Positions 5,695-32,148 are shown, counted from the first letter of the stretch. The stretch is DNA of 32,384 bases from Proteobacteria bacterium CG1_02_64_396 (GCA_001872725.1 MNWR01000025.1:1-32384), one strand, 5' to 3'. Translations and numbers: made by a program. Notes: generated by a model from the letters alone, not told the origin.

Positions 5695-5713
5695 AAAAAC
5701 CTCGCTGCGGAGG

Positions 5714-5727: not shown

Positions 5728-5750
5728 TTTATTAGTAAATTCGATGTCTG

Positions 5751-5822: not shown

Positions 5823-5830
5823 TCACCCCC

Positions 5831-7074: not shown

Positions 7075-7122
7075 GCCCCAACTTTGGTTCAGAGCCGTAC
7101 CTCAATCTGGAAGGAAACCACC

Positions 7123-7884: not shown

Positions 7885-7960
7885 ACACCAAAAAGCAGGG
7901 CGAAAAGCGGGCTCACGCACAGCCGCCGTTGCTCTTGATCTTGTTTTGAAAGGACGACCC

Positions 7961-10422: not shown

Positions 10423-10468
10423 GGAGGAAGACCCCCAAGGGTGCGGCTGGGGGGGGCAGGCGGCACAC

Positions 10469-10500
10469 CCCGGCACCCCCTCGCCGGGCCGGGTGCTGGG
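10469..10500. other. GC-rich hairpin in the gap before the urea-transporter fusion
   Basis: CCCGGCACCC at 10469-10478 pairs with GGGTGCTGGG at 10491-10500 with one G-T pair. No T-tract follows. It could slow or partly end transcription in the 150-base gap between the decarboxylase and the next gene. I see no gene in the gap. Confidence 0.3.
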
Positions 10501-10574
10501 TCCACCGATTCTCGGACAGAGTTCTGCTTCCATAGTCCCCATCGACCACTTCCGTCTTGCAGGGAGGCGACCCC

Positions 10575-12755
10575 ATGACCCACGACGACCTACCTAAAAA
10601 ACACTGGCTCGCCCCCCTCGACGAGCTGGCCCGGGCCTACGCCGCCATCGGGTTTCTTCCCTTTCCCAAGGCGGGGTGGCTGTTCGCCGCCGCCACCTTT
10701 GTCTTCCCCAACACGGCGCTGGCCGGACTCCTCGGGGGGGCGATGGGGCTGATGGTGGCGCGGCTGCTCGGCTTGGGAACAAGCCCTCAAGAGCGGGGCT
10801 GGATTGCCTTCAACGCCCTGCTTGTCGGTCTTTCGCTGGGCGCCTTCTATCGGCTGGATCTGCACCTGCTGCCGCTGCTGGCGGCGGGGAGCATCATGGC
10901 GGTGCTGCTGACCGAAACCTTGCATGTGGTGCTGGGGCGGCTGCTGGGATTGCCGGTGCTGTCGCTCCCCTTCGTGTTCACCACGCTGCCCCTCTATTTC
11001 GCCATCCAGGGGTTCGGCAACATCGGCTTTTACCCGGCGCTGCTGGTCCACCGCGATCCCCTCTTTCCACCGCTGATCGACAGCTTCTTCACCCACTTAG
11101 GGGCGGCCCTTTTTGCCCCCCATCCGGTGGCGGGGATGCTGATCTTCATCGGCTTGCTCATCGCCTCGCGTTGGCTGGCGCTGCTGGCGGTCAGCGGTTT
11201 TGCGGCAGGCGGCCTGTTTCAGGTGGTCATGACCGGTTTTCTGCCCTCGATGCCCGGCTCCTGGGTCGGCTTCAACGATATGTTCACCGCCATGGCGGTG
11301 GGGGGGGTCTTCGTGGTTCCGGGGCTGCGCGCCTGGATTCTGGCGGTCGCCGCCGCCATGGTGACCTCGCTGGTGGCGGCGAGCCTAACCTCGATTCTGG
11401 CCATTTCGGGTCTGCCGATCCTGGCCCTGCCTTTCAATCTGGTTACCTTGACCCTGCTGCTGACCCTGGCCCAGCGCCCCCATCCGGTGGCCCCTTACCT
11501 GATTCTGCACCGCCCCGATCTGCCCGAGGTCAGCCGCCGCCGGGCGAGTTTGGCCCAGGCGCGGCTGGGTGCCATCGAAAGCCTGCCATTGCGCCCCCCC
11601 TTCTTGGGGCAATGGAGCATCTACCAGGGGTTCGACGGCCCCCACACCCATCGCGGCCCCTGGCGCCATGCGCTCGACTTTATTGTGTTGGGGGACGACG
11701 GTAGGTCGTTCGAGGGGGAGGGGAGCAAGGTCGAGGATTACCACTGCTTCGGGCTGCCGGTGGTCGCCCCTGCGGCGGGGACGGTCACCCAGATTCGCGA
11801 CCACCTGCCCGACACCCAACCGGGCGATCTGGGGGCGCGCGACGCCTGGGGCAACGTGGTGGTGTTGCAGGTCTCCCCCTACCGCTATGTGGTGCTGGCC
11901 CATCTGATGCCCTATTCGATCAAGGTTAAGGTGGGTGATCGGGTCGAGCTGGGGCAAACCCTGGCCCGCTGCGGCGCCTCGGGCCGCGCCCCCCAGCCCC
12001 ACCTGCACATGCAGGTTCAGCAGACCCCGACCGTGGGGGATGCGACCCTCCCTTTCCACCTCACCGCCCTGATCGATGAAACCGGCCACTACCGGCTGCA
12101 TACCATTCCGGTTCAAGGGGGGAGCGTCACCCCGGTGGAGCCCTCCCCCGCCTTGGCGCCGCTCCTCCATCCCCCGGTCGGCACCCAGTGGCGTTTTGCC
12201 TGGGAAGACAATCAAGGGGGAGGTGGTGAGGAGGTGCTCACCCTGAGCGCAACCTTGCTCGGGGAGCTGCGACTCAGCAGCGGTGGCGGCGGTTCGGTGG
12301 GGATCAACCTGGCGCACGGGGTGACCACCCTGTTTGATCCGGTCGGGGTCGACACCCCGGTGCTGGCGATCCTGATGCAGGCCACGGGGATCACCCCCCA
12401 CGCCGACGAGACGGGGATGACCTGGGTGGACGCCCCGGACCCCTCGTGGCTCTTTTTGCCCACCCTGCGGCGGGGGCGGGAGATCCTCTTCGATTTGGGC
12501 TGGCCCGAGCCGGTCGGGGTTTCGTTAAGCCGTGAGGCGACCCGGGAGGGGTGGCGGCAAACCGCGGTGCTGCGTCTGAAACAGGCCGGTTTGCCCGACC
12601 TGGTTCAAGAGGCGAGCGCCACCTTTGTGCGGGGTCAGCTCGGCCCCGACACCCTGAGCGGCACCTTTCGCGGCCGCGCCATCACCGCCCAGCAAACCGG
12701 GCGGCAACAAATTGCCGATGTCGGCATTCCAGGAGGAGCGGATGAGCCCCAGTAA
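10575..12755 (+). CDS. Urea-transporter-like membrane domain fused to an M23 metallopeptidase
   Basis: 726 residues. The first 310 or so are hydrophobic, with about ten predicted membrane segments, and resemble the bacterial UT urea-channel family (P-L-Y-F-A-I-Q-G-F-G-N-I-G-F-Y-P and G-L-F-Q-V-V). From about residue 355 comes a soluble domain with the LytM/M23 zinc sites: H-A-L-D-F near residue 365 and H-L-H-M near residue 476, with V-V-A-P-A-A-G-T-V and W-G-N-V-V-V-L between them. M23 enzymes usually cut peptidoglycan cross-links. A further 200 residues of unknown, probably beta-rich sequence follow. The ATG at 10575 has GGGAGG before it. The fusion suggests uptake of a small amide coupled to work on a periplasmic peptide. 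The transported solute is not known. Confidence 0.8.
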   Translation: MTHDDLPKKHWLAPLDELARAYAAIGFLPFPKAGWLFAAATFVFPNTALAGLLGGAMGLMVARLLGLGTSPQERGWIAFNALLVGLSLGAFYRLDLHLLPLLAAGSIMAVLLTETLHVVLGRLLGLPVLSLPFVFTTLPLYFAIQGFGNIGFYPALLVHRDPLFPPLIDSFFTHLGAALFAPHPVAGMLIFIGLLIASRWLALLAVSGFAAGGLFQVVMTGFLPSMPGSWVGFNDMFTAMAVGGVFVVPGLRAWILAVAAAMVTSLVAASLTSILAISGLPILALPFNLVTLTLLLTLAQRPHPVAPYLILHRPDLPEVSRRRASLAQARLGAIESLPLRPPFLGQWSIYQGFDGPHTHRGPWRHALDFIVLGDDGRSFEGEGSKVEDYHCFGLPVVAPAAGTVTQIRDHLPDTQPGDLGARDAWGNVVVLQVSPYRYVVLAHLMPYSIKVKVGDRVELGQTLARCGASGRAPQPHLHMQVQQTPTVGDATLPFHLTALIDETGHYRLHTIPVQGGSVTPVEPSPALAPLLHPPVGTQWRFAWEDNQGGGGEEVLTLSATLLGELRLSSGGGGSVGINLAHGVTTLFDPVGVDTPVLAILMQATGITPHADETGMTWVDAPDPSWLFLPTLRRGREILFDLGWPEPVGVSLSREATREGWRQTAVLRLKQAGLPDLVQEASATFVRGQLGPDTLSGTFRGRAITAQQTGRQQIADVGIPGGADEPQ

Positions 12756-13605
12756 AACTCGGATCTTCGTCTTGGCGGCGCTCTGCCTGGGCGCCCCGGC
12801 GGCGGCGCCGGTAGCCCATGCGGGGATGGTTTGGACCCCCACCGTTAATCTCGACGGATACGCGCTGCTGTATACAGGATCCAACACCCGGCAAGGGGGG
12901 ATCGGTGCCAAGGCGAGCCTCGCTACCACCTATCTGGAGCGGTGGCGCCTGCGCGGTTCAGCCATTCTGGAGTCGGTCGGTTTCAAGGATGGCAGCGGTA
13001 TTCTTCAACACGGGTTTTCGCTTGGGGCTGGGGTGAATTTCTTCAGCGATAGCCCCGCCGGGGTGTGGGCTTTGGACGGCGATCTGTTCAAGATCGACAA
13101 CAACGACGCCACCGGACAAAGCGGCAACCTCTCGGTCGCCGCCCTGCGGTTGTCGTTCAGCGACCGGGGGGGGAGAGGGGCGGTGGGGATCGGAGCCGTC
13201 CGCTCCCACTACGGCGATCTGGGGATCGACGTCACCCAGGGCGACCTGGGGGGTCGGCTCTATTTCGACCACGGAACCTATCTTGCTTTGGGGTTGCGCA
13301 GCATCGCTCCCGGCGCCGCCTCACCCACCCTGGCCTACATGGGGGAGGTCGGTTGGACCACCGACTCGGGGACCCTATCGGCCTGGGGTCGGGGGGGGAC
13401 TCAGCAGTTCGCGGTCGACGCCGACCAAGGCTGGATCGTCAACTTGGCCGACCGGCAGCAAAAGGGGGGTGGCCTGCAATGGCGGGGCCATTTCGACCGC
13501 TGGAGCTCCTGGAAAATCGGCGCCTTTTGGGAACAACTCAGCCCCACCACCGGGGGGGTCTACAACAGTGTGGGGGGCAGCGCCTCCCTCTTTTATGCGT
13601 GGTAA
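12742..13605 (+). CDS. Secreted protein, probable outer-membrane beta-barrel
   Basis: 287 residues. A clear signal peptide ends near A-H-A-G (about residue 28). The rest is Gly/aromatic-rich with alternating polar and hydrophobic stretches, and the chain ends in F-Y-A-W, an aromatic last residue as expected for an outer-membrane barrel. I do not recognise a named family. The ATG at 12742 lies inside the 3' end of the urea-transporter fusion (14-base overlap) behind AGGAGGAG, so it belongs to the same operon. Confidence 0.7.
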   Translation: MSPSKTRIFVLAALCLGAPAAAPVAHAGMVWTPTVNLDGYALLYTGSNTRQGGIGAKASLATTYLERWRLRGSAILESVGFKDGSGILQHGFSLGAGVNFFSDSPAGVWALDGDLFKIDNNDATGQSGNLSVAALRLSFSDRGGRGAVGIGAVRSHYGDLGIDVTQGDLGGRLYFDHGTYLALGLRSIAPGAASPTLAYMGEVGWTTDSGTLSAWGRGGTQQFAVDADQGWIVNLADRQQKGGGLQWRGHFDRWSSWKIGAFWEQLSPTTGGVYNSVGGSASLFYAW

Positions 13606-13618
13606 GGAGAACAAAACG

Positions 13619-14263
13619 ATGAGGAATCCCATTCATGGCGGTCTACTGGCCTTGATGTTGATCGCCGGATTGAGCCTCGCCGGTGTTGCCCAGGCGCAGC
13701 CCAGCACCACGGTCGAAGACAAACTCGCGACCTCGTATCAGCTTGAGGTGCAGGGCAAATACCCCGAAGCACTGGCAGCGCTCAGCGACATCATTCCCAA
13801 CGGCACCGGGGTCGCCGAGTTTTTGGCGCTGCGCAGCGGTTGGCTGCTCTACCTGGCCGAGCGCTACGGCGATGCGTTGGAGGCCTACCAACGGGCCGCC
13901 ACCCTCAACCCCCGCTCGGTCGAGGCGCACCTGGGGGCGAGCCTGCCGTTGATGGCCCAATACCGCTGGCGCGAGGCGGCCCAGGAGTGCCGCAACGCCC
14001 TGAAAATCGCCCCCGGCAATCAGACTGCCGCAGTGCGTCTGGTGGTGCTGACCACCTACCTGGCCGATTGGAGTCAGATCGCCGAGACGGCCCGGCAGGT
14101 CCACGCCATGTACCCCACCGATCTGGATGCCCTGTATTGGCTGGCGCGGGGATTGTCGGAATCGGGTCAGCTCAACGAGGCTCGCCCCTATTGGCGGCAA
14201 TTGCAGGCGTTGGTCCCAGGTCACGCCGAGGCCAAGGCGTGGCTGGAGGTGCCTGTTTCATAG
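13619..14263 (+). CDS. Periplasmic tetratricopeptide-repeat protein
   Basis: 214 residues with a signal peptide (hydrophobic run ending A-Q-A-Q near residue 24) and about four to five TPR units (for example Y-G-D-A-L-E-A-Y-Q-R-A-A-T-L-N-P and W-R-E-A-A-Q-E-C-R-N-A-L-K-I-A-P). TPR proteins act as scaffolds. It starts 13 bases after the barrel gene behind AAGGAG, and is the last gene of the cluster begun at 7123. It may hold the periplasmic parts of that system together. Confidence 0.82.
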   Translation: MRNPIHGGLLALMLIAGLSLAGVAQAQPSTTVEDKLATSYQLEVQGKYPEALAALSDIIPNGTGVAEFLALRSGWLLYLAERYGDALEAYQRAATLNPRSVEAHLGASLPLMAQYRWREAAQECRNALKIAPGNQTAAVRLVVLTTYLADWSQIAETARQVHAMYPTDLDALYWLARGLSESGQLNEARPYWRQLQALVPGHAEAKAWLEVPVS

Positions 14264-14280
14264 GGGTCGTGTTGGGTTGG

Positions 14281-14682
14281 GGCGGTGTTGCCCCCTCATT
14301 CGCGGTCGGGGACCGCTCCTACAAAGGGGTGTTGGCGCCGCCATGGGGCTTGTGGGAGGCGACTTCTGTCGCCGAAGCGAAGCCGGGGCGGTGGGTTTGG
14401 CTCCAGGTTGAGGCGGCCTTGGTTTCGGCGTCCCCCCGGTTGGGGGCGGTGTTGCCCCCTCATTCGCGGTCGGGGACCGCTCCTACAAAGGGGTGTTGGC
14501 GCCGCCATGGCCTGTGGGAGGCGACCTCTGTCGCCGAAGCGAAGCTGGGGTGGTGGGTTTGGCTCCAGGTTGAGGCGGCCTTGGCTTCGGCGTCACCCCG
14601 GTTTGGGGGCGGTGTTGTCCCCTCACTCGCGGTCGGGGACCGCTCCTACAAAGAGGTGTTGGCGCCGAAGCGAAGCTGGGTA
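14281..14682. repeat. Tandem array of about 164-bp units made of REP-like palindromes
   Basis: Units begin at 14281, 14445 and 14608 (third partial). Each holds the palindrome GCGGTCGGGGACCGC followed by TCCTACAAA. The first two also carry GGCGACxTCTGTCGCC in GTGGGAGGCGAC...GTCGCCGAAGC. The motif GTAGGAGCGGTC/GTAGGAGGCGAC is like the REP family of gammaproteobacteria. The whole gap 14264-14807 has no supportable gene. Confidence 0.85.
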
Positions 14683-14807
14683 GACGCACCTAGCCCAAGG
14701 TTGGGGCAACCAACCCGATCCCGAGTTTTCCCTCACTTTAAGACCACTGTAAAACCCTTGGACGGATCCCTCGTTTCTCTCACCCCCACCCTCGTGCGAG
14801 GTGGCCC

Positions 14808-15593
14808 ATGAGCCTCGACACCGTATTGCTCGATCTCGATGGGGTGCTTTATGTCGGCGACACCCCCATCCCCGGCGCTGTCCAAGCCGTGCAAACCCTG
14901 CAAGAGCGGGGCTACCGGCTGGCCGGAGTGACCAACACCTCGACCCGCAGTCGGGCTCAGGTTCATGCCAAACTTGGCGCCCTGGGTTTTTCCCTTCCCC
15001 GCAGCCATCTCTTCACCCCCGCCGCCCTGGCGGTAGCCAACATCGGTGCCCGTAAGGCGGCCCTCTTCATTCATCCCCATTTGGCCGAGGATTTCCAAAC
15101 GGTCACCCGTGACGACGCCGATCCCGAGGTGGTGGTGATGGGCGATGTGGGGGGGCAGGGCTACTCAGGGGCGACCCTGCAACAGATCTTCACCCAGGTG
15201 ATGGGGGGGGCGCAGTTGATTGCCTTGCACAAAAACCGCTATTGGCTCACAGAGCAGGGGTTGCACATCGACCTGGGGGCGTTTGTTGCCGCCATCGAAT
15301 ACGCCACCGGGCGGCAGGCGGTGGTGTTGGGCAAACCGGCCACCCCCTTTTTTACCGAGGTTCTGGCCGCCCTGAACACCACCCCCGAACGGGCCTTGAT
15401 GGTGGGGGACGATCTTGAGGCCGATGTGGGGGGGGCGCAGGGGGCGGGGCTCAGGGGGGCGTTGGTGCAGACAGGCAAATTCCGCCCCGAGGTGTTGGCC
15501 CGCTCCCCCATTGTTCCCAGCGCGGTGTTGTCGAGTATTCGCGATCTCCCGGGGTGGTTGGAGCGGTTGAGCAGGGAAAAGGCGCCCGGTTGA
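14808..15593 (+). CDS. HAD-superfamily phosphatase, LHPP/NagD type
   Basis: 261 residues. HAD motif I is V-L-L-D-L-D-G-V-L-Y at the N-terminus, with V-T-N-T-S near residue 44 as motif II. Motif III/IV is seen as V-L-G-K-P-A-T and M-V-G-D-D-L-E-A-D-V. The cap domain lies between motifs II and III (subclass IIA). Relatives hydrolyse small phosphoesters or phospho-amino acids; the specific substrate is unclear. It stands alone between the REP array and a dispersed repeat, so it gives no operon clue. Confidence 0.9.
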   Translation: MSLDTVLLDLDGVLYVGDTPIPGAVQAVQTLQERGYRLAGVTNTSTRSRAQVHAKLGALGFSLPRSHLFTPAALAVANIGARKAALFIHPHLAEDFQTVTRDDADPEVVVMGDVGGQGYSGATLQQIFTQVMGGAQLIALHKNRYWLTEQGLHIDLGAFVAAIEYATGRQAVVLGKPATPFFTEVLAALNTTPERALMVGDDLEADVGGAQGAGLRGALVQTGKFRPEVLARSPIVPSAVLSSIRDLPGWLERLSREKAPG

Positions 15594-15631
15594 TCCCAAG
15601 GGGGTATCATCGCCCGCGGCGGCGCATTTCA

Positions 15632-15853
15632 GGGCATCCCTAAATACCGCCTTCTTGGCGGTATTTGGAGAAACGCTGATTCAAGGCCGCCTGCCTTGAA
15701 TCAGCACGCTCCGCCAGAACCAAAAGTAGGTGTTCTGAAGCGAGTGGTTTTTGCTTCGCTTTTAAAAGCAGTCATTTACGTTCCTGATTTTGGCAGCCCA
15801 TCCCTGGGTTGCTCGGAAGCACTGAATAAATCAGCGCTTCCTTAGGGATGCCC
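15632..15853. repeat. Dispersed structured repeat, copy 1 (MITE-like, 12-bp TIR)
   Basis: The ends GGGCATCCCTAA (15632-15643) and TTAGGGATGCCC (15842-15853) are perfect inverted repeats bounding 222 bp. Inside are three hairpins: AATACCGCC/GGCGGTATT, GCTGATTCAAGGC/GCCTTGAATCAGC and GGAAGCxCTGA/TCAGCGCTTCC. A long stretch matches copy 2 at 21983-22172 closely, including TTACGTTCCTGATTTTGGCA. No transposase is encoded. It fills most of the gap 15594-15941. Confidence 0.8.
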
Positions 15854-15890
15854 GTCCGAACCATTGGCAGGATCGGACGTCGAATTGTGC

Positions 15891-15910
15891 AGACGTTTTG
15901 AGACGTTTTG
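15891..15910 (+). promoter_or_regulatory. 10-bp tandem direct repeat before the DUF4114 gene
   Basis: AGACGTTTTG occurs twice in exact tandem 30 bases before the start codon. The spacing of one helical turn fits a protein-binding site, but no regulator can be named. Confidence 0.3.
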
Positions 15911-15941
15911 GCGTTGAAAATGACGCGGGAAGGGGGCTGTG

Positions 15942-16700
15942 ATGAGACGATTTTCTGCACTTCGAGCCGCTGGTTTGGGGCTGGTCGGCGCCTTGGCGGT
16001 GGCGGCGCCGAGCCATGCGGTGGCGGTGATTACCCCCGATCTGGTACCCCTGGTCGAAGAGGGGATCGCCGTGGCCGATCCGCTGGCCTTCGGATTCGAC
16101 GCAGCCAACATCACCCTGACCTACGACACCGTGGTTTCGGTGATTTTCGTCAGTGAGGGGGCCGGTTATCGCAGCACCTTCGGCTGGTACGACGCCTCGC
16201 TCGATCCCACCCTGCCCACCAATCGCAACGTTATTTGGAACAACGCCTCGATGGCGGGATCGGGGGGAAGCCTCAACACCGGCGATACCGTCACCTTGGG
16301 TAGCTTTGCGGCGGGCAGCGCCATCGGCTTTTTTCTGACCGCCGACGGCTTCAGCAACGCCAGCGCCCCCACCTACTACACCAACACCCCCTACAACCCC
16401 GACGGCGGGGTGATCCACACCGTGTCGAGTCTGCTCCCCATCGAGGGGTTGGTGGCGTTGGGTTTTGAGGATCTCTGGGGCGGCGGCGACCGGGATTACA
16501 ACGACGTGGTGGTCGCCATCGATCTGGGGCCGACCAACGTTGCCTCGTTGCCTGGCATCCCCGAAAACGACACCTGGATTTTGCTGTTGTCCGCCGGGCT
16601 CTTCATGGCCTTGACGCTGTGGTGGCGCGCTCGCCCGGCCCCTGCGGTGATTCTTCGTGCGGCGCCCCCAGTACCCCATGCAGATCGGGAAGGGTTGTGA
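15942..16700 (+). CDS. DUF4114 secreted protein with PEP-CTERM-like sorting tail
   Basis: 252 residues. A signal peptide ends near S-H-A. The middle contains G-F-E-D-L-W-G-G-G-D-R-D-Y-N-D-V-V, the hallmark of DUF4114 domains found in many PEP-CTERM proteins. Near the C-terminus is P-G-I-P-E-N-D-T-W, then a membrane span (I-L-L-L-S-A-G-L-F-M-A-L), then R-A-R, the three-part layout of an exosortase signal although the motif is PEN rather than PEP. About 25 extra residues follow the basic cluster, which is unusual. The exosortase gene follows on the other strand and overlaps its last 98 bases. It is the obvious substrate. Confidence 0.8.
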   Translation: MRRFSALRAAGLGLVGALAVAAPSHAVAVITPDLVPLVEEGIAVADPLAFGFDAANITLTYDTVVSVIFVSEGAGYRSTFGWYDASLDPTLPTNRNVIWNNASMAGSGGSLNTGDTVTLGSFAAGSAIGFFLTADGFSNASAPTYYTNTPYNPDGGVIHTVSSLLPIEGLVALGFEDLWGGGDRDYNDVVVAIDLGPTNVASLPGIPENDTWILLLSAGLFMALTLWWRARPAPAVILRAAPPVPHADREGL

Positions 16701-23407: not shown

Positions 23408-24096
23408 CGGTTCCTGCAATGGGGCTGCAAATGCTGCGGCGCACCCATTCCTGGGGGCTGGCAATGGTCCCTGCTGGGGTGGCGGCGGTGTTGCTGCTGC
23501 TCATGCTGGCGCTGGGGGGCTCCTGGATGTCGGGCTATCTGACCGAGATCAACGCCTCCGGCCAGGGGTTCTGGGATGCCACCCTGGACGGCCTGCGCTG
23601 GTTGGCGGGGGGGGTCGCCCTGCTGGTCGCCTCGGGCATCGTCGCCCTGCTCGGCGCCCAGGCGGTAGCGGGGACGATTCTTGAAACCATCGCCCACCGG
23701 GTGTTGAAGCTGCACAACATCGAGCCCCAATCCTCGAATCTCAATGCCCTCGATATTGCCCTGGATGCCGTGCGCGAACTGGGGCTCTTCCTGGTGGGAA
23801 TGCTGGTTATTCTGCTCATCGGGCTGATCCCCGGCCTGGGCTGGCTCGCCGCGCCGATCCTCGCCCCCCTGTGGTCGGCCTTTTTCTTGGGCCACACCCT
23901 GACCACCCCCGCCTTGGAGGGGCGGCTGCCCACCTTCAAGGAGCGTTGGGAATACGCTCTGACCCAGCCGTTGCTGGTGCTGGGCTGCGGTTTGGTCAGC
24001 GGGGTTTTGCTCGCCATTCCCCTGGTGAATTTGCTGGTTCTACCGGTAGCGGTGGCGGGCAGCGCCTGGGCGCTGAGCGACCGGCTGCCGGATTGA
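23380..24096 (+). CDS. EI24-domain (CysZ-like) membrane protein
   Basis: 238 residues with about four to six membrane spans. The ending with L-P-T-F-K-E-R-W-E-Y-A-L-T, then a hydrophobic hairpin with P-L-V-N-L-L-V-L-P-V-A-V-A-G, is typical of the EI24/CysZ family. CysZ itself imports sulfate, but distant EI24 members are not assigned. The start at 23380 has GGAG and GAGG upstream. It is followed 2 bases later by the nucleotidyltransferase gene. Confidence 0.82.
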   Translation: MFSGLLRGLTVPAMGLQMLRRTHSWGLAMVPAGVAAVLLLLMLALGGSWMSGYLTEINASGQGFWDATLDGLRWLAGGVALLVASGIVALLGAQAVAGTILETIAHRVLKLHNIEPQSSNLNALDIALDAVRELGLFLVGMLVILLIGLIPGLGWLAAPILAPLWSAFFLGHTLTTPALEGRLPTFKERWEYALTQPLLVLGCGLVSGVLLAIPLVNLLVLPVAVAGSAWALSDRLPD

Positions 24097-24098
24097 CC

Positions 24099-25007
24099 GT
24101 GCCCGGGGGCGCCCCCCTCCCCGATGCCGCGGCCTATCTGGCTTGGCTCCTCGGCGACACCGTTGAGCCCACCATTCACCCCACTGCCGAACTGCTGCAC
24201 ATCCACGGTTTGCTCAGTCTGCAACAGGCCCGCCTGACCGGCTCCCCCGCGTTTGAAGCCCATCTGGCCTCGATGCGTTTGGAGGGGGCGGCGTGGCAGC
24301 TTGGCGCCCTGCTGTTGGAGGGTGGCATCGACTTTCTGCCCCTCAAGGGGTGGGATGTTGCCTTTCGCCTCTACGACGATCCGGCGCTGCGCCCGATGAG
24401 CGATCTCGATCTGTGGGTCGGGGGGGAGGGGGATTTTGCTCGGGGGCTGACCCTGTTGCTCGACCGGGGCTACAGCCGGGTGAGCGACGGCGAATACGAC
24501 GTTTCGTTGGTCGATCCGACCGGGCAAGCCTTGATCGAACTGCACCACGGCCTCGATTCCCGCTACCGGGCGCGGCTGACGTGGGACGAGCTGTGGGGAC
24601 GAAGCCGCCCCTGGCTTTGGAACGGTCTGGCGCTGCGCCGCATGGATCCCACCGATCTGTGGTGCTATCTGGCGTTTCATTTCGGCAAACACGTGGGATT
24701 GCAGCGCCGCTTGATGTGGCTGCTCGATCTGCATCTGCTGCAACGGCAATCCCCGGTCGATCCGCACGCCGTTGTCGAGCGGGCCGGGCGCTGGCGCATC
24801 CAGCACGCACTGCGGGCCGCCGCGTGGGAACTCAAGCGGCTGGGACTCGACCACCCCCCTCTCGACCTTCCCTCCCTGCCCGCGCCGTTTCGCGGCGCCC
24901 CCTGGGATGTCGGGCTGTTCGGACGCTGGCGCCAGGTGGCCTATCATCTGTGGATCGCCGACCGGCTTTGGGATCGGCTGCGTTATGGCTGGGACCAAGC
25001 GACATGA
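24099..25007 (+). CDS. Nucleotidyltransferase-like protein (NTP_transf_5 type)
   Basis: 302 residues from GTG 24099. A TTG six bases earlier, overlapping the previous stop, is an alternative. The key motif is F-L-P-L-K-G-W-D-V-A-F-R-L-Y followed by L-R-P-M-S-D-L-D-L-W-V, where the two Asp of D-L-D would bind metal. This family occurs in lasso-peptide and HprK-related clusters. The adjacent ABC genes and the kinase operon at 30470 fit that context. It may transfer a nucleotide to a modified peptide or enzyme; this is inference. It overlaps the ABC ATPase by ATGA. Confidence 0.82.
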   Translation: MPGGAPLPDAAAYLAWLLGDTVEPTIHPTAELLHIHGLLSLQQARLTGSPAFEAHLASMRLEGAAWQLGALLLEGGIDFLPLKGWDVAFRLYDDPALRPMSDLDLWVGGEGDFARGLTLLLDRGYSRVSDGEYDVSLVDPTGQALIELHHGLDSRYRARLTWDELWGRSRPWLWNGLALRRMDPTDLWCYLAFHFGKHVGLQRRLMWLLDLHLLQRQSPVDPHAVVERAGRWRIQHALRAAAWELKRLGLDHPPLDLPSLPAPFRGAPWDVGLFGRWRQVAYHLWIADRLWDRLRYGWDQAT

Positions 25008-25654
25008 TCGAGCTGCACAACATCGTCAAAACCTTCCGCCCCTTCGCCCCCCCGAAGTCCTGGTTCCACGCCCCCCCCATCGACCGCCCCCTGCCGGTGT
25101 TGCAAGGGATCGATCTGCATGTGCGTCCCGGCGAGGTGGTAGGAATCCACGGCGCCAACGGCGGCGGCAAGTCGACCCTGCTGCGACTGATCGCTGGGCT
25201 CATCGAACCCGACGCCGGAACCCTGCGTCGTCCCGAATCGGTGTCATTACTGGATGCGGATCGCCTCCAACTGGAAGAGCGGCTGACCATCCGAGAAAAC
25301 CTGACCTATCTGGGCGCCCTACGCGGTCTGGGGCAGAGCGAATGCCATCAGCGTTTGAAAGAGCATGCCCGCTTGCTCAACATCGACTACCTCGACCGGC
25401 GGGTCAACGGCTGCTCCAGCGGCATGCGTCAGGGTGCCTACTGGCTGTTGGCGTTATTGCCTCAAAGCCCGGTGCTGTTGCTCGACGAACCCTTTATCTC
25501 GCTCGATGAAGCGCACATCGAGACAGCGATCACCCACCTACGCCACTGGGTTGACCAAGATGAACGGGGAGGGGTGGTGGTCAGCCATCAACGCAATTGT
25601 CTTGAGCGCTGTAGCGACCGAGTGTTGCATCTGAATCAGGGGCGATTGTCATGA
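25004..25654 (+). CDS. ABC transporter ATP-binding protein
   Basis: 216 residues. Walker A is G-A-N-G-G-G-K-S-T, the signature is C-S-S-G-M-R-Q (a relaxed form common in ABC-2 exporters), Walker B is V-L-L-L-D-E-P, the D-loop is S-L-D, and the H-loop is V-V-V-S-H-Q. All ATPase residues are present. It overlaps the permease gene by ATGA. With that permease it should form an exporter. The position next to the peptide-modification genes suggests the modified peptide as cargo. Confidence 0.93.
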   Translation: MIELHNIVKTFRPFAPPKSWFHAPPIDRPLPVLQGIDLHVRPGEVVGIHGANGGGKSTLLRLIAGLIEPDAGTLRRPESVSLLDADRLQLEERLTIRENLTYLGALRGLGQSECHQRLKEHARLLNIDYLDRRVNGCSSGMRQGAYWLLALLPQSPVLLLDEPFISLDEAHIETAITHLRHWVDQDERGGVVVSHQRNCLERCSDRVLHLNQGRLS

Positions 25655-26472
25655 ACAGGGCGGCTTGGCTGCTCTTAGGGGCAACCCTGCGCTTTCAATG
25701 GCAAGGCTGGAAAACCCACCGTCTGGGGATGGTGCAATCGCTGATCTGGGTGGCAGCCTCGGCCCTGATGTTTTTCGGGATCGATCGGCTCTTCGCGTTG
25801 CTCGGCGACGAGCGCCCCCTCGACATCGGCGCCTCGTATCTGGCCTATGTGCTCATTGGCATGGCGGTCAACGGGGTGGTCATGAATCTGATGTTCGGGC
25901 TGGGAAAGCAGATGGGACGCATTGAGTACGGTGGGCAGCTGGCCTGGATGTGGAGCGGAAGCACCCACCTGCCACTGCCGCTCGTCCTGTTGATCGGCGC
26001 CGTTCCCGGCCTTGGAACGCCGCTGCTCGAGATGGGGCTCTTTGCCCTGGTCGCCTGGGCATTGGGGATTGCACTACCCGAGGCCAATTGGCTTGCGGGG
26101 GCGGTGGTTCTCCTGGTTTCCATGCTCGCTTTTGTCGGCTTCGGCCTGATCACCGCCGCCTCTCAGCTCTGGTTGAAGAAGGGCAATCCCCTGGGATTTT
26201 TATTTGGAGGGGTGGCAACAATCCTCGCCGGATTGTATTTCCCGGTATCGGTCTTGCCTGAGATGCTGCACCCCATCGCCCTGGCCATACCCCTGACCTA
26301 TACCTTCGATGGACTACGCGATGCCTTGATCCATGGTGCGTCATGGGTCGACGTCTGGCCGGACTTGGCCATGCTGACCTTGTTCGGAGCAGGATTCTGG
26401 GTTGCTGGGCTTTGGGGTCTTCGCGCAGCCAAGCGGCGTGTTCTTGAAGAGGGTTCTTTGGGACTCGACTAA
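25651..26472 (+). CDS. ABC-2 type transporter permease
   Basis: 273 residues with about six membrane spans. The late segment G-L-Y-F-P-V-S-V-L-P-E-M-L-H-P-I-A is the typical ABC-2 exporter region before the last spans (usual pattern G-x-x-F-P-x-x-x-L-P). It is the last gene of the overlapping plus-strand run from rpe. A weak inverted repeat with CAAAGGG/CCCTTTG at about 26488-26514 may help end transcription before the convergent transglutaminase-like gene. Confidence 0.9.
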   Translation: MNRAAWLLLGATLRFQWQGWKTHRLGMVQSLIWVAASALMFFGIDRLFALLGDERPLDIGASYLAYVLIGMAVNGVVMNLMFGLGKQMGRIEYGGQLAWMWSGSTHLPLPLVLLIGAVPGLGTPLLEMGLFALVAWALGIALPEANWLAGAVVLLVSMLAFVGFGLITAASQLWLKKGNPLGFLFGGVATILAGLYFPVSVLPEMLHPIALAIPLTYTFDGLRDALIHGASWVDVWPDLAMLTLFGAGFWVAGLWGLRAAKRRVLEEGSLGLD

Positions 26473-26528: not shown

Positions 26529-27170
26529 TCACACAAGTAATGTACCGTTAGGGTGGAGAGGGAGTCGTTCATTGCGATCCTGAGGGATGTCGTGACGGTG
26601 CAGTACGATCAAACCTGATTCGGTCAAATAGTGTTCCAGAGACGCTGCGGTTTCGGACAATCCATCTGCGGCCCACCAGGTTTCCTCGTTCCACACCTCG
26701 ACCCAAGCATGGGCGGTATCCCCCTCAGGTTTTAGCCCAATGCACAACCGTGTCGACAGACCCAGCTCATAACCTCGGCGAGCCAACAGGACCGCCCGTC
26801 CCTTGCAGTCGAGTTGTGGCCACATGGCTGCCTCGGCCACCGTGAGCCAAGGTAATCCATCTCGATAGGGGCAGTGTCGATACAAAACGCGGGCGTATTC
26901 CGTCCAATCGTGCAAGGGAGCATTCGAGGGTGCCGCAGGTCGGGGCGCTGTTGTGATCGATTGGATCGCCAACTGCTGACGACCGGCCCGCCATGCCCAA
27001 CGCCACCCCTTGGTCCGCACGCAACGCAGGCGCACCCAACTATGGGCCAGAAACCCATAGCTTCCCAAGACCAAGCGGCGAAGCCACAACCTAGACCACG
27101 GAGATAGCGGATCAAGACGACGCCCTATCCAACGGCGCCGTCGGTATCGATACGCCCAAGAATTCGACAT
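26529..27170 (-). CDS. Transglutaminase-like protease, lasso-B2-like
   Basis: 213 residues. An arginine-rich N-terminus is followed by a transglutaminase-like core: catalytic Cys in L-D-C-K-G-R-A-V-L-L-A-R-R-G, His in T-A-H-A-W-V-E-V and a likely Asp in A-A-D-G-L. The A-R-R-G...A-H-A-W-V-E-V pattern resembles the B2 leader peptidase of lasso-peptide systems. In this locus it could remove the leader of the Cys-rich peptide. The ATG at 27170 shares the bases CATG with the start of the divergent gene at 27169. No better downstream start is seen. Confidence 0.75.
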   Translation of the reverse strand: MSNSWAYRYRRRRWIGRRLDPLSPWSRLWLRRLVLGSYGFLAHSWVRLRCVRTKGWRWAWRAGRQQLAIQSITTAPRPAAPSNAPLHDWTEYARVLYRHCPYRDGLPWLTVAEAAMWPQLDCKGRAVLLARRGYELGLSTRLCIGLKPEGDTAHAWVEVWNEETWWAADGLSETAASLEHYLTESGLIVLHRHDIPQDRNERLPLHPNGTLLV

Positions 27171-28848
27171 GACTTATTTCATCACCCTCATTGTTGCCGT
27201 CTGTAGCATTCTCTATGAGTTGATTCTGGCCCAAAGCCTATCGCTATTGATGGGCAACACGGTTTTGCGTTATTCGGTCACCATCGGCCTGTATCTGTTT
27301 TCGCTTGGCGCGGGGGCATTGCTTTGCGAGCGCTGGGGATGGTCAAAAGGCTCGGCACGCCCCCGTCTGATCCGTGTGGAGCTTCTGCTCGGGCTGGCGG
27401 GAGGTGCCTCTGTTCTACTCTTGGGGCTTTTCGCCGTCGCCGAACGGATCATTCATCTCTATCTGGGGTATCACTGGGGCGAACCCGGTTCTTTCTACCA
27501 AACCGTTTTTTTGATCCTTCTGCACCTGCCGATCATATTGATCGGTCTTCTCTCCGGTTGTGAAATCCCGCTTCTGGTGAACTTAAAAAGCGAAGAGGAC
27601 CCCCTCTCCAACCCCCTCAACAAGATTCTGGCCGTCGACTATTTCGGAGCGCTGCTCGGCTCCATCCTTTTCCCCATCTACCTTTTGCCACAATGGGGAC
27701 TTTACGCTACCGCCTTCGCCACCGCTTTTCTCAACGGCCTGGCTTGTCTGGCCTTGACCCTGACCTATCGGCCCATTCTCAAAAAAGCCACCTACGCCGG
27801 AGTCGCCCTTGTCATCCTTATGGGCGTAGGCATCCTGCAAAGCCAGTCCCTCCAACAAGCAACGCTGCGCTATTACTACTATTTTTTTTTGATCTATGAG
27901 CCCACCTTCGATCTGTGGCGCCCCCTGAAAATCGGGGATGACATCCAACGCATCCCCTCGCGTTTTCAAAGAGTCGAGCTGATCCCCTATGGCTCTCTCC
28001 TCCCACCCGACCTCCTTCAAGAGGACCTGGGCGCCAAATTTCGGGCTGAGCCCGACTTTCCTAGGTACTGGGTATTGCGGCTCAATCGTCGTGCGCAATG
28101 GAGCTCCAACCTAGAGGAGTACTACCACGAGCCCTTTGCCCATTTTCCCATTCAGGTACGGGGCTCTGTACCACGCAAGGTTCTGATTCTGGGTGGAGGC
28201 GACGGCTTGTTGGCCAGGGAATTATTGAAATACCCGCAGGTACACATCACTCAGGTGGAACTGGATCCCACTATGATTGAGACCGCGAAACACCATCCCA
28301 TCTTTCGAGCTATGAATCACGGCAGCTTTGACGATCCGCGGGTCACCATCGTGCAACAAGATGCTTTGATCTACCTGAGCCAAAACCAGGAATCCTTTGA
28401 TGCCATTTACGCCGATTTCCCAGTACCGGTCGATTACGACCTCTCCCGGCTGTACAGCGCCACCTTCCTTGAATTGGTCCGTCAGCACCTCAGCGACAAC
28501 GGTTTTGCCGTTATGGATGTCCCCTTCGAAACAGGCTCACGGGAGTGGTCCATCCTCATGGCCACGGCAAAAGCGGCCCAATGGCATGATTTACAGCCCT
28601 TCGGGGAGAAAAAAAGCGGGGAGAGTTTCATACTGGGTTGGAGCGACAACGGGGAGAGAACAAACAAAACGGCCATGTGGCATGACTGGAACATTCCACT
28701 CTATATGCTGAACGCCACATCCATGGCCCAGGCCGTCGATTATGGCGCGCGCATCAGCGCAGGGATTGATCCTCACGCACCGGCCAACACCCTCGACCGC
28801 CCTCGGCTTCCTCTGCTCGGCGAGCAAAAACTAGTCGCAATCTGGTAA
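27169..28848 (+). CDS. Membrane protein with spermidine-synthase-like domain
   Basis: 559 residues. About seven membrane spans fill the first 240 residues. Then comes a Rossmann methyltransferase-like fold with V-L-I-L-G-G-G-D-G (nucleoside binding), V-E-L-D-P and D-A-L-I-Y-L, as in spermidine synthases. The catalytic loop is D-F-P-V-P-V-D-Y-D-L-S-R-L-Y-S, where most relatives have D-x-P-D-P or D-S-S-D-P. The second Asp, the usual catalytic base, is Val here, so ordinary aminopropyl transfer is doubtful. It lies inside the candidate peptide locus and may modify a membrane-side product; this is inference. Confidence 0.85.
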   Translation: MTYFITLIVAVCSILYELILAQSLSLLMGNTVLRYSVTIGLYLFSLGAGALLCERWGWSKGSARPRLIRVELLLGLAGGASVLLLGLFAVAERIIHLYLGYHWGEPGSFYQTVFLILLHLPIILIGLLSGCEIPLLVNLKSEEDPLSNPLNKILAVDYFGALLGSILFPIYLLPQWGLYATAFATAFLNGLACLALTLTYRPILKKATYAGVALVILMGVGILQSQSLQQATLRYYYYFFLIYEPTFDLWRPLKIGDDIQRIPSRFQRVELIPYGSLLPPDLLQEDLGAKFRAEPDFPRYWVLRLNRRAQWSSNLEEYYHEPFAHFPIQVRGSVPRKVLILGGGDGLLARELLKYPQVHITQVELDPTMIETAKHHPIFRAMNHGSFDDPRVTIVQQDALIYLSQNQESFDAIYADFPVPVDYDLSRLYSATFLELVRQHLSDNGFAVMDVPFETGSREWSILMATAKAAQWHDLQPFGEKKSGESFILGWSDNGERTNKTAMWHDWNIPLYMLNATSMAQAVDYGARISAGIDPHAPANTLDRPRLPLLGEQKLVAIW

Positions 28849-28885: not shown

Positions 28886-29074
28886 TCACGACATGCTGGC
28901 GGTTCGTCCCGGTTTGAGATTGCAGCCCGCCTTGCGCTTGCACCCATTCGGGGTCTGGCAGGAGGGCGAGATGTTTTTCTTGGTGCATTTTGAAGTCTGT
29001 TGCGCCCCAGCGGTATTGCAGTCGCTGATATCAACATGAATCAACCGGGGGGTGCTCCAAGTTGGACGGTTCAT
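28886..29074 (-). CDS. Candidate Cys-rich precursor peptide (62 aa)
   Basis: 62 residues. The ATG overlaps the stop of the radical SAM gene as ATGA. A perfect AAAGGAGG lies 9 bases upstream at 29084-29091. Five cysteines stand at residues 19, 30, 39, 45 and 51. The N-terminus has W6-S-T-P9-R-L11, like the Y-x-x-P-x-L leader motif bound by PqqD-type domains in lasso peptides. The C-terminus is A-S-M-S, ending in serine, the residue that HprK-like lasso kinases phosphorylate. The core is rich in Lys, Arg, Ser and Thr. I infer that it is the substrate of the radical SAM, PqqD and kinase genes of this operon. I do not recognise a known precursor family. Confidence 0.72.
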   Translation of the reverse strand: MNRPTWSTPRLIHVDISDCNTAGAQQTSKCTKKNISPSCQTPNGCKRKAGCNLKPGRTASMS

Positions 29075-30186
29075 AAATTAACGCCTCCTTTAACCGCACG
29101 AATAGGAATGGTCCGACGTTCGTGAAGGGGACCGATGGTCTTCCCATCGCCCTGCAAAAGCAATGGACAGCGCGGATCGGGAGCCCGCCAAGTACCAAAA
29201 ACCTTATGGGCATTGGCCCTACATCCCCCTTGACATTCCTCCAGCCAGAGGCAGTCGCGGCAAACCTGCGGCAACCACGCCTCGTCCCTAAAATGACCGT
29301 ACAACCCCGGCAAGCGACGATAGGCGCCGATCCATCCATGTTCGAGGACCCGATTGGCAATCCCGGCATGCCAGGTGGCGTTGCACGGGATCATTGAACC
29401 ATCGGGCAACAGGGTTACCACCACCTGATTGGCACTACCCAGCGAACACAGACCCGGCTTCCCCGACGATTGCAAGGTCAATGACATACTGGAAAACCTC
29501 AGTCGATCACTGTCCCCAAAGGCGTCCACCTCCGCCTCCAATCGCTGCAACACCTCCAGGTCGGGTTTCAGTTCTTCCCAATGAGCACCAACATTGGCCC
29601 GCCCCATCGCCCCCACCTCGGCAAGCGAGATGCGGTTCACCCCGAACTCAAGCAAGCGATCGATTAACGGCAACATCTCATGCTGATTGGCCCGGGTAAC
29701 CGTGACCTTGACCTGGGTACGCAACCCCGCCTGTTTCATCCAGCCCAAACCCCGGAGAATGAGATGATGAGCGTGTCGACCCATCAGTGCGTCATTCACC
29801 TCGGCTGTGGCGCCGTTGAGGCTAATCTGTCCCTCCTGCAATCCCGCCTCCACCAAACGGGCAACCCGATCCTCGGTGAGCAACATCCCATTGGTGGTGA
29901 GATAAACATAGACGCCTCCCTGAGCCAGCAGGGTGACAATCTCCTCAAGATGGGGAATCAACGTCGGCTCCCCCCCAGTCAAAGTCACTCGCATGACCTC
30001 CCCAGCGAGCATCTCCTGCGCCACACGCAGGTGCTCCTCCCGAGTCAACTCCTGCGTCATGACTTTTGGATGCGGTTCCGACTCGACCATGCAGAAGGAG
30101 CAAGCCAGATTGCAACGATTGGTCAGCATCCAGAAAGCATCGAGAGGACCTGGCCAGATCCGTTCGTGGGTTTCCTCTATCGACAC
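29071..30186 (-). CDS. Radical SAM / SPASM peptide-modifying enzyme
   Basis: 371 residues. The [4Fe-4S] SAM motif is C25-N-L-A-C29-S-F-C32, with the SAM-binding G-G-E-P soon after. The C-terminal SPASM region has C-S-L-G, P-C-N-A, C-R-D-C, E-E-C-Q-G-G-C and a last R-C-P, enough cysteines for two auxiliary clusters. SPASM enzymes modify ribosomal peptides, for example by making thioether or C-C links. The GTG start at 30186 follows GGGAGG and overlaps the PqqD gene by 10 bases. The 62-aa peptide follows directly, and its five Cys make thioether formation the first guess. Confidence 0.93.
   Translation of the reverse strand: MSIEETHERIWPGPLDAFWMLTNRCNLACSFCMVESEPHPKVMTQELTREEHLRVAQEMLAGEVMRVTLTGGEPTLIPHLEEIVTLLAQGGVYVYLTTNGMLLTEDRVARLVEAGLQEGQISLNGATAEVNDALMGRHAHHLILRGLGWMKQAGLRTQVKVTVTRANQHEMLPLIDRLLEFGVNRISLAEVGAMGRANVGAHWEELKPDLEVLQRLEAEVDAFGDSDRLRFSSMSLTLQSSGKPGLCSLGSANQVVVTLLPDGSMIPCNATWHAGIANRVLEHGWIGAYRRLPGLYGHFRDEAWLPQVCRDCLWLEECQGGCRANAHKVFGTWRAPDPRCPLLLQGDGKTIGPLHERRTIPIRAVKGGVNL
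29084..29091 (-). promoter_or_regulatory. Perfect Shine-Dalgarno for the 62-aa peptide
   Basis: AAAGGAGG on the minus strand, 9 bases before the ATG at 29074 and inside the last codons of the radical SAM gene. It is the strongest ribosome-binding site I noticed in the window and indicates high translation of the small gene. Confidence 0.85.
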
Positions 30187-30473
30187 GCTGCCGCCTCCCC
30201 GATATGCAACAGCGACTGCTCAACCAAATCGTCAATAAAGGTCTTAATCTCAGCGCGCATCTGGTCTGGGTCACCAGCGAAGGCCGCGCTCATGGCCTGC
30301 GCCAGATCGTCCATCGTGAAATCATCCCGTTCAGCGATCCAACGCCACATGGCCACGGCGGTCCCCTCAAGATAGAAAACCTCTCCCGAGTCGGCTTGAT
30401 AAAGCACCGTCTTGTCGTCGATCACGCGGGCGATCACCCAGCGCGGGCGATGAAACCGAGTCACAGCATTCAT
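30177..30473 (-). CDS. PqqD-family peptide chaperone
   Basis: 98 residues from the ATG at 30473, which overlaps the kinase stop as ATGA (a second ATG is 12 bases upstream). The pattern V-L-Y-Q-A-D-S-G-E-V-F-Y-L-E-G-T-A-V-A-M-W-R-W-I and a helix ending I-D-D-L-V-E-Q-S-L-L is the PqqD/RRE winged fold that binds leader peptides. In lasso systems the equivalent is B1. It sits between the kinase and the radical SAM gene and likely presents the Cys-rich peptide to both. Confidence 0.88.
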   Translation of the reverse strand: MNAVTRFHRPRWVIARVIDDKTVLYQADSGEVFYLEGTAVAMWRWIAERDDFTMDDLAQAMSAAFAGDPDQMRAEIKTFIDDLVEQSLLHIGEAAACR

Positions 30474-31405
30474 GAATCCATCCATTGGGTGAGCAACGCG
30501 GGTAAATCATCGAGATCCCGCTCTAAGTCGTATTCAATCCCTACGAGGGGTACTTGGTTCAGGATCCGCTCCAAAGTATCGAACAGTTGGCGATTGTACC
30601 GTTTGACCTCTTGAGCGATCTCGCTGGTGTTGGCTGGGTCGAGGTACTCTCGATGCATCTCTTCGATCAATCGCGTCCACAAATCCCACCGACCTACCGA
30701 CATGCACCGGGCCTTCTCAACGGATCGAGGTTGCAACAACACGATTCCCCCCAGCGGTAACGGGGTGGTTTCATAGTGAGAAGAGACATCCCAACGTTCC
30801 CCATGATCGTTGAAGAAGCCCTGGTAGGACTGGGTTTTCCCCTCCAACCCTAACCGCCGCATGCCCCAAACACTGGTTCGTAAAGCGCGCGGAAGAGGGA
30901 ATACCCGGCCATCGGCCATTAAAGCATCTTCATCGCTGAGATAACGCCCCCCGGCGCGCACCCAACGGGCGGTGATCGTGGTCTTACCAGCACCCGAGGG
31001 GCCGACCAACGCATAACCTTTGCCTTCATGGACCAAAACCGCGGCATGGAGATGCAAGACATGGTCATGGTGCTGTAGCAAGCGAAAGCGCAACAAAACC
31101 GCAGCATAAACAATGGTTGTCAACACCTTCTCATCGATGCTGTAAGGCCCCTCCAAAACGACATCGGCCACCCCTCGTATGGGGTCGACCTCGGGACGAA
31201 CCCGATCATAGGGACCAACCTCGCCTTCTCCACCACGACGTAAAGTCAGGTGCAACGCCGCAGCGGCGCGCTCGGCAACCGGACCATCACAAAAAAACGG
31301 CCCTGCTTCCCGCCGCAACGCGGACACCAACTCCGGCATGTCGGTACGAAATAAAATCGTTTCTCCGCCCCAGGTCAGAAGACAGTCGGACAGCGGGAGG
31401 GTCAT
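30470..31405 (-). CDS. HprK-related kinase
   Basis: 311 residues. The P-loop is V-G-P-S-G-A-G-K-T-T near residues 134-143, just after H-L-H-A-A-V-L-V-H, and an acidic block Y-L-S-D-E-D follows as in HPr kinases. It lacks a typical HprK N-terminal domain and is one of the HprK-related proteins found with PqqD genes and in phospho-lasso clusters, where the kinase acts on the C-terminal serine of the peptide. The candidate peptide here ends in serine. It is the first gene of the minus-strand operon, with the ATG at 31405. Confidence 0.87.
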   Translation of the reverse strand: MTLPLSDCLLTWGGETILFRTDMPELVSALRREAGPFFCDGPVAERAAAALHLTLRRGGEGEVGPYDRVRPEVDPIRGVADVVLEGPYSIDEKVLTTIVYAAVLLRFRLLQHHDHVLHLHAAVLVHEGKGYALVGPSGAGKTTITARWVRAGGRYLSDEDALMADGRVFPLPRALRTSVWGMRRLGLEGKTQSYQGFFNDHGERWDVSSHYETTPLPLGGIVLLQPRSVEKARCMSVGRWDLWTRLIEEMHREYLDPANTSEIAQEVKRYNRQLFDTLERILNQVPLVGIEYDLERDLDDLPALLTQWMDS

Positions 31406-31552: not shown

Positions 31553-31701
31553 GGGGAAGCGCTGATTGATGAGCGCTTCCGAGCGGCTCAGGGATGGGCT
31601 GCACGTGGTGCGCTGTCGTAGGAGGCGACCCCGTCGCCGAAGCTTTTGGTTTTTGCGGAGCGTGCCGATTCAAGGCAGGGGGCCTTTATTCAGCGTTTCC
31701 C
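31553..31701. repeat. Dispersed structured repeat, copy 3 (inverted, degenerate)
   Basis: Reverse-oriented relative of the elements at 15632 and 21983. It keeps GGAAGCGCTGA/GCGCTTCC, the CAGGGATGGGCTGC block and GTGCCGATTCAAGGC. The middle is replaced by a REP-like palindrome GTAGGAGGCGACCCCGTCGCC (31618-31638) of the type seen at 14281-14682. Confidence 0.6.
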
Positions 31702-31869
31702 TAGGAGTCTGTCGGGCTTGAGCGTCCGTAGCGAGCCGAGTGGGGAATCGAGGCCAAATTTTCACGGTTTTGAGGATCATAGTGGTGGCTATGTGACGAA
31801 AAACCGGGGGAATTTGGACCGATTACCCGCCGGCGCAGTAGGACGATCTCAAGTCCGACAGACTCCTAG
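31701..31869. mobile_element. 169-bp MITE with 22-bp terminal inverted repeats
   Basis: CTAGGAGTCTGTCGGGCTTGAG at 31701-31722 is matched inversely at 31848-31869 with one mismatch. The interior is itself an imperfect palindrome (GGCCAAATTTTCACGGTTTT against AAAACCGGGGGAATTTGG). It encodes no transposase. The same end sequence, CTAGGAGTCTGTCGGACTT, stands at 32130, before an IS256-family transposase start, so that element is its likely helper. Confidence 0.8.
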
Positions 31870-32019: not shown

Positions 32020-32133
32020 ATGACCGCCACCCGATACACCATCGAATTCCAGCCCCGCATCCCCGAGGGCTTTCCCGGCAGAGAGATCTGGCCTCCAGCA
32101 TCCAATCTGGCATCTTTTCATTTCAGGCGCTAG
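32020..32133 (+). pseudogene. Possible 5' remnant of an alpha-glucan phosphorylase-like gene
   Basis: A 37-codon frame whose first 18 residues (R-Y-T-I-E-F-Q-P-R-I-P-E) resemble the start of the DUF3417 domain of alpha-glucan phosphorylases. After that the similarity seems to continue in another frame (L-S-R-Q-R-D-L-A-S-S-I), which suggests a frameshift. It ends at the IS end at 32130. It could also be chance. The stretch 31870-32019 before it shows only a possible AT-rich promoter (TATAAATAAT) and no gene. Confidence 0.28.
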
Positions 32134-32148
32134 GAGTCTGTCGGACTT
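32130..32148. repeat. Left end of an IS256-family element
   Basis: CTAGGAGTCTGTCGGACTT matches both ends of the MITE at 31701-31869 and lies 130 bases before the transposase start, a fitting place for the left inverted repeat. The right end is outside the window. Confidence 0.6.

Follow-up and report, generated by a model that had tools for sequence, protein, structure and literature searches.

A predicted RiPP gene cluster of Proteobacteria bacterium CG1_02_64_396 that may join lasso-type substrate handling to a radical SAM enzyme

A stretch of 32,384 nucleotides from Proteobacteria bacterium CG1_02_64_396 (GCA_001872725.1, MNWR01000025.1:1-32384; the whole stretch is called the window below) contains four minus-strand genes for an HprK-like kinase, a PqqD-family protein, a radical S-adenosylmethionine (SAM) enzyme with a SPASM domain and a peptide of 62 amino acids. 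We favour the reading, with a probability of roughly 0.6, that they form the center of a cluster for a ribosomally synthesized and post-translationally modified peptide (RiPP), in which the substrate is handled in a lasso-type manner similar to paeninodin and pseudomycoidin and the radical SAM enzyme is the ring- or crosslink-former. The gene contents, the leader motif and its spacing, the catalytic residues, the missing lasso cyclase in the window and the predicted core free of acidic residues can all be read from the sequence. The cluster combines known kinds of RiPP and is a member of no family tested. A RiPP operon had already been proposed in the first-pass annotation, and this proposal is supported by the likely translation of the small frame, by its motif for a RiPP recognition element (RRE) and by similar gene sets elsewhere with Cys-containing precursors of the [Y/W]xxPx[hydrophobic] type.

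The operon runs on the minus strand from the kinase (30470..31405) through the PqqD-family RRE (30177..30473) and the radical SAM/SPASM enzyme (29071..30186, 371 aa, GTG start) to the precursor peptide (28886..29074, MNRPTWSTPRLIHVDISDCNTAGAQQTSKCTKKNISPSCQTPNGCKRKAGCNLKPGRTASMS), and the positions given in the first-pass annotation could be reproduced for all four genes. The radical SAM stop and the peptide start share an ATGA (29071-29074), the kinase and PqqD genes overlap in the same way with 30473 as the PqqD start (30485 in the longest frame), and PqqD overlaps the GTG-started radical SAM gene by 10 nt; the earlier figure of 4-10 nt is therefore right. The Shine-Dalgarno sequence AAAGGAGG (29084..29091, minus strand), a strong ribosome binding site located 9 nt upstream of the peptide ATG, occurs only once in the window on either strand. 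The synonymous codon preference of the peptide gene (+0.077 per codon) lies inside the range of 62-codon pieces from real genes and was reached by none of 156 off-frame pieces; the plain codon score, which includes the amino-acid make-up, was indecisive because the composition of the peptide is unusual. Based on the ATGA overlap, the unique AAAGGAGG and the gene-like synonymous codons we therefore take the 62-codon frame as very probably translated. The same points, together with an RRE motif at lasso spacing, speak against the least probable of the explanations that we considered, namely that the substrate of the enzymes is encoded at another place, as may hold for the SynChlorMet and HPr-rel-A cassettes, and that the 62-codon frame has arisen by chance or is only a minor open reading frame; the lack of detected peptide homologues and weak scores against ScmC, ScmD and ScmE would fit such an arrangement.

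The peptide matches no NCBIfam or Pfam family, and its N-terminal part resembles the leader of a lasso precursor. The previously noticed W-x-x-P-x-L is present as W6-S-T-P9-R-L11 (29042-29059, minus strand) in the predicted leader, which comprises residues 1-22 (29009..29074, minus strand) with Thr21 as the penultimate residue, and it matches the published motif [Y/W]xxPx[L/V/I/F/A] that is bound by discrete RREs and documented in lasso and LPP precursors, with Trp as the usual first residue in leaders of the paeninodin type (PMC13381572). Lasso leaders have this motif between -17 and -12 (W-17, P-14, L-12) and a Thr at -2 (PMC10368454). If Gly23 is counted as +1, Trp, Pro, Leu and Thr21 of the window peptide are at -17, -14, -12 and -2, and Thr21-Ala22-Gly23 is placed exactly where lasso leaders have Thr(-2) and Gly1. 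Of shuffled peptides with the same composition, 0.44% had [WY]xxPx[LIVFA] within their first 25 residues, and about 0.05% had the motif plus a Thr ten residues past its last position. The motif is common to the FusE, McjB, PqqD and StsC groups of RREs, and recognition of W/Y/LxxP/L/I is not confined to one class and includes the sactipeptide RRE StsC (PMC12710340); therefore the leader alone does not make the window peptide lasso-derived. It is the leader together with the Thr(-2), the B2-like protease, the kinase and the nucleotidyltransferase that points, by analogy, to a lasso-type handling of the substrate.

The predicted core comprises the 40 residues 23-62 (28889..29008, minus strand), with the putative cleavage site placed by analogy with lasso B2 peptidases. 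The Cys residues at 19, 30, 39, 45 and 51 of the peptide are where they had been reported; C19 is probably part of the leader, and the other four are regularly spaced at core positions 8, 17, 23 and 29. The core has no Asp or Glu, eight Lys/Arg, a predicted isoelectric point of about 10, an unmodified mass of about 4169 Da and no Tyr, and it ends with Ser62. A C-terminal Ser is the acceptor of PadeK-type (paeninodin-type) kinases, and in pseudomycoidin the nucleotidyltransferase gene psmN adds a hexose at the phosphate of the C-terminal Ser (PMC9266682). Four regularly spaced Cys in a strongly cationic core would also suit a disulfide-bonded or metal-binding peptide that is phosphorylated and left unmodified by the radical SAM enzyme. 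We regard this as quite improbable, as the peptide is translationally coupled directly to the radical SAM gene and the order PqqD, radical SAM, peptide is found independently in a locus from the Bacillota side (L203, see below).

The radical SAM enzyme matches PF04055 above the cut-off, has a CX3CX2C motif at residue 25 and contains the exact SPASM pattern CX15GX4C...CX2CX5CX3CX17C. Its best NCBIfam score is to PqqE (TIGR02109, 135.5 bits with a cut-off of 381), followed in our comparison by MftC (TIGR03962, 121 bits, cut-off 265), and PqqE is also the nearest solved chain; as both scores are below the cut-offs, it belongs to neither family. The scores against StsB (72 of 625 bits) and PapB (64 of 340 bits) are likewise too low. 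PqqD is a discrete RRE (PF05402, 46.4 bits, above the cut-off) which also exceeds the cut-off of TIGR04353 (HPr-rel-A, 44.7 bits, cut-off 35), and its nearest solved chain is, weakly (E 0.02), the lasso RRE TbiB1. The kinase has the P-loop GPSGAGKT; the P-loop, H120, K141 and D158 are invariant across eight HprK-like peptide kinases, and the predicted model matches the folds of PEPCK and HprK/P. It reaches 44.2 of 200 bits for TIGR04352 (HPr-rel-A), and the SynChlorMet profiles gave 21/125 (ScmC), 37/100 (ScmD) and 95/400 bits (ScmE). Thus, the SynChlorMet and HPr-rel-A cassettes of NCBIfam share an HprK-like protein and PqqD with the window, plus a radical SAM enzyme in the case of SynChlorMet, but the kinase and the radical SAM enzyme of the window are far below the cut-offs and only PqqD passes (TIGR04353). 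These profile cut-offs led us to reject an assignment to PQQ, mycofactocin, SynChlorMet, HPr-rel-A, StsB or PapB.

PqqE/PqqD and MftC/MftB are the nearest characterised radical SAM systems, and both work with a discrete PqqD-type partner. This similarity would fit a pathway like those of PqqE and MftC, leading to a redox cofactor or another small molecule, with a carbon-carbon link or a decarboxylation and subsequent degradation of the peptide to the cofactor. Such a pathway is highly improbable: besides the missed cut-offs, the precursor is unrelated, the core has neither Tyr nor Glu, and PqqB/C- or MftD/E/F-like genes were not found among the typed neighbours.

Beyond the first-pass annotation we found a B2-like protease, a PF14907 nucleotidyltransferase and an ATP-binding cassette (ABC) ATPase plus permease within 5 kb downstream of the operon. 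The B2-like protein (26529..27170, minus strand), a transglutaminase-fold cysteine protease in its own transcription unit, is a candidate leader peptidase: it matches PF13471 with 28.4 bits (cut-off 26), residues C122, G145, H154 and W156 are invariant in 24 aligned B2 proteins (the one in the window and 23 others), and the predicted model resembles LapG and other transglutaminase-like cysteine proteases. The nucleotidyltransferase (23871..25007, plus strand, true start probably downstream of 23871) matches PF14907 with 116 bits and is a putative tailoring enzyme of the PsmN/LppN type. The exporter ATPase (24986..25654, plus strand, PF00005) overlaps both neighbours, by 4 nt in the case of the ABC-2 type permease (25651..26472, plus strand, PF01061 just below the cut-off, PF12698). 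Paeninodin-like lasso peptides and LPPs are tailored by a set of HprK-like kinase, nucleotidyltransferase and RRE (PMC13381572).

This gene set also bears on a more conventional explanation, a radical-SAM thioether RiPP of the sactipeptide/ranthipeptide kind (StsA/StsB/StsC-type), in which the RRE and the radical SAM enzyme crosslink the Cys to other residues, the kinase is incidental or tailoring, and the protease, the nucleotidyltransferase and the exporter are unrelated neighbours. The streptosactin-type StsA/B/C sactipeptides and the PapB ranthipeptides share with the window a radical SAM/SPASM enzyme that acts, or in the window is predicted to act, on a Cys peptide, the discrete RRE StsC belongs to the same W/Y/LxxP/L/I recognition group (PMC12710340), the core is Cys-rich, the SPASM domain is canonical and the neighbouring genes are in separate transcription units. 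Nevertheless, we consider it unlikely, as the radical SAM enzyme is far below the StsB and PapB cut-offs, the kinase and a candidate lasso-type protease set the window apart from these systems, the Thr(-2)-Ala-Gly spacing has to be accommodated, and a chance gathering of kinase, PF14907 protein, B2-like protein and RRE, the lasso/LPP tailoring set, in 8 kb is improbable.

With the phosphorylated lasso peptides paeninodin, pseudomycoidin and BsfA the window shares the [W/Y]xxPxL leader, Thr(-2), Gly1, the discrete RRE, the HprK-like kinase, the paeninodin-type C-terminal Ser, a PF14907-type nucleotidyltransferase and, as a candidate, a B2-type protease; the -2 residue is Ile in BsfA. Unlike these systems it has four core Cys, a radical SAM/SPASM gene and an ABC-2 instead of an MsbA-type exporter, and it has neither a cyclase nor an acidic core residue: two asparagine-synthetase-like proteins found no match in the six-frame translated window, and an Asp or Glu at core position 7-9, which a lasso ring requires, is missing. 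A lasso ring is therefore excluded, and a lasso product was rejected, as the cyclase is absent from the contig and the predicted four-Cys core is without an acidic residue. A cyclase is present elsewhere in the genome. There, a separate complete lasso-type cluster is located at about 4983-16217 of another contig (L084, G000:C93:1-17000), with an asparagine-synthetase-like cyclase, two HprK-like kinases, a sulfotransferase, PqqD, an MsbA-type exporter and a B2-like protein that follows a repeat-rich frame. Its precursor (...AYTPPSIVDLEALEETEAKTTVAPIESGTAVGPS, 9464-9673, minus strand) has a Y-type leader with YTPPSI and a C-terminal Ser. LPP clusters share the RRE, the LPP traits HprK-like kinase and nucleotidyltransferase, the exporter and the missing cyclase with the window, but LPPs use a SipW-like SpI and a YxxPxVLxHQxIxFETxxS leader and no radical SAM enzyme (PMC13381572). 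The window differs in all three, since the leader motif is absent from the peptide and the SpI of L203 found no match in the window.

To place the cluster among its relatives, we searched 60 relatives, 399 genomes of the phylum, 198 genomes around a SynChlorMet-like genome and the collections genome_contigs, viral_contigs and plasmids; the class of the source organism is represented in this sample by this single genome. A close homologue was found for neither the peptide nor the enzymes in this sample of about 660 genomes and three collections, and the closest radical SAM match shows about 32% identity. As to the genome search proposed in the first-pass annotation, similar gene types recur elsewhere, but no direct homologue of the peptide was found. 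In two families of the same phylum 18 loci contain radical SAM, PqqD and HprK genes, most with a PF14907 gene alongside (labelled L085-L093, L096 and L174-L184). In 16 of them (L085, L087-L090, L092, L093, L174-L178, L180-L182 and L184) a Cys-rich YxPPx[IVM] precursor is located directly upstream of the radical SAM gene, and one of the other two is cut by a contig end. The motif in these precursors reads Y[A/V/T/I]PP[A/V/M][I/V/M] and follows an RR(K/R)LL stretch. The N-terminus resembles a twin-arginine translocation (Tat) signal, yet carries the RRE-type YxxP motif. Apparently these loci constitute an undescribed family; they share the three enzyme types with the window, but the precursor gene comes first and the radical SAM enzyme is weakly similar and has an N-terminal extension of about 95 aa.

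A PqqE/SPASM-type radical SAM gene beside B2 was found in none of the 40 other B2 loci of the phylum, most of which have an asparagine-synthetase-like cyclase, while two carry an unrelated long CxxxCxxC protein. Among five B2 loci on the Bacillota side, L203 has a radical SAM gene with its own second PqqD, arranged as PqqD, radical SAM, peptide (MKKEYCKPELDVKAYAQFENVFTKCNKGNDGPQKCSFIPGW..., a YxxPxL Cys type) and HprK-like gene, so that PqqD, radical SAM and peptide are in the same order as in the window. In L203 (1775-13122) a paeninodin-type lasso set, this Cys-peptide set and an LPP-like set with SpI stand in a row, bringing three PqqD genes and three distinct [Y/W]xxP leaders next to one another. 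L206, another of the five, has only MoaA and B12-type radical SAM genes. Its precursor, which matches the NCBI lasso leader model, has a leader ending in ...YEKPELVEYADLKSLTAG, with Thr at L+10 followed by Ala-Gly, and this spacing is identical to that of the window peptide. The locus (1827-6565) comprises a kinase, a nucleotidyltransferase, PqqD, B2 and this lasso-leader peptide with a short tail after T-A-G, and an asparagine-synthetase-like cyclase was not found within the 13 kb read. The combination of a B2-like protein, radical SAM, RRE and kinase without a cyclase is found in the window alone within the sample.

Several observations weigh against the reading of lasso-type handling combined with a radical SAM enzyme. 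It suffers most from the missing peptide homologues, which leave no conservation of the Cys or of Thr-Ala-Gly to refer to. Furthermore, the radical SAM enzyme resembles PqqE and MftC, which do not form thioethers, and the kinase has Asp-Glu as in radical SAM-associated kinases where lasso kinases have Asp-Asp, and in a kinase tree forms a long branch with no supported place with either group. The B2-like protein is divergent and below the NCBI lasso-B2 cut-off (NF033537, 17.8 bits, cut-off 33); its gene, the nucleotidyltransferase and the ABC pair are outside the four-gene operon, and the loci of the two families have no B2 and a Tat-like precursor.

For the favoured combination of lasso-type handling and radical SAM chemistry we infer the following reactions and their order, including cleavage site and product. 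Through translational coupling the 62-aa precursor would be the operon's last product, and its W6xxP9xL11 leader would be held by the PqqD/RRE. On this scaffold the radical SAM/SPASM enzyme would modify the Cys-rich core, most likely by thioether or other crosslinks, and thereby replace the ATP-dependent macrolactam synthetase of lasso pathways. The HprK-like kinase would phosphorylate the core on a Ser, with the C-terminal Ser62 as the most likely acceptor, and this phosphate may be elaborated further by the PF14907 enzyme. Finally, the B2-like cysteine protease would cut after T21-A22 and free the 40-aa cationic four-Cys core from Gly23 on, which the ABC pair would export. One could go further and imagine a RiPP class in which the radical SAM enzyme takes the place of the lasso cyclase and core Cys8, at the position of the lasso Asp8, is joined near the N terminus, e.g. 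to Gly1, giving a lasso-sized thioether- or carbon-linked ring on a phosphorylated and possibly glycosylated peptide, but this more specific idea is a long shot.

A membrane spermidine-synthase-like protein (27169..28848, plus strand, PRK03612-like C-terminal domain) lies between both gene groups, and its membership in the cluster is uncertain; the best matches in other genomes span residues ~303-527 only, and no tie to RiPP loci was found in the loci compared. Spermidine synthases usually carry a DxPDP-type motif. This membrane-fused protein reads DFPVP at that position and may not be an ordinary aminopropyltransferase. Genes beyond the cluster are of the housekeeping type, e.g. ribulose-phosphate 3-epimerase at 22509. 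Upstream of the operon there is an element similar to miniature inverted-repeat transposable elements (31701-31869, also 32130-32144) with 22-nt terminal inverted repeats flanking 125 nt. Its 15-mer CCGACAGACTCCTAG has 90 copies in the genome (reversed control 0), often paired 154 nt apart in opposite orientation and often near contig ends.

Taken as a whole, the cluster, from a bacterium represented by a single genome, plausibly recombines known parts of natural-product pathways in a new and directly testable way. This arrangement suggests that leader, RRE, B2 and kinase form a lasso module exchangeable between ring chemistries, the ATP-dependent macrolactam and the radical SAM type; if so, RiPP mining should also look for Thr(-2)-containing Y/WxxPxL leaders in clusters lacking a cyclase. 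The 18 radical SAM-PqqD-HprK loci of the two families, with their Cys-rich YxPPx[IVM] precursors, seem to form another family still to be described. With its six to eight genes the window offers a compact set for asking how a single RRE can work with both a lasso-type protease and a radical SAM enzyme, and as a separate Y-type lasso cluster is found elsewhere in this genome, it is a natural case for the discrimination between W and Y leaders reported for Bacillota.

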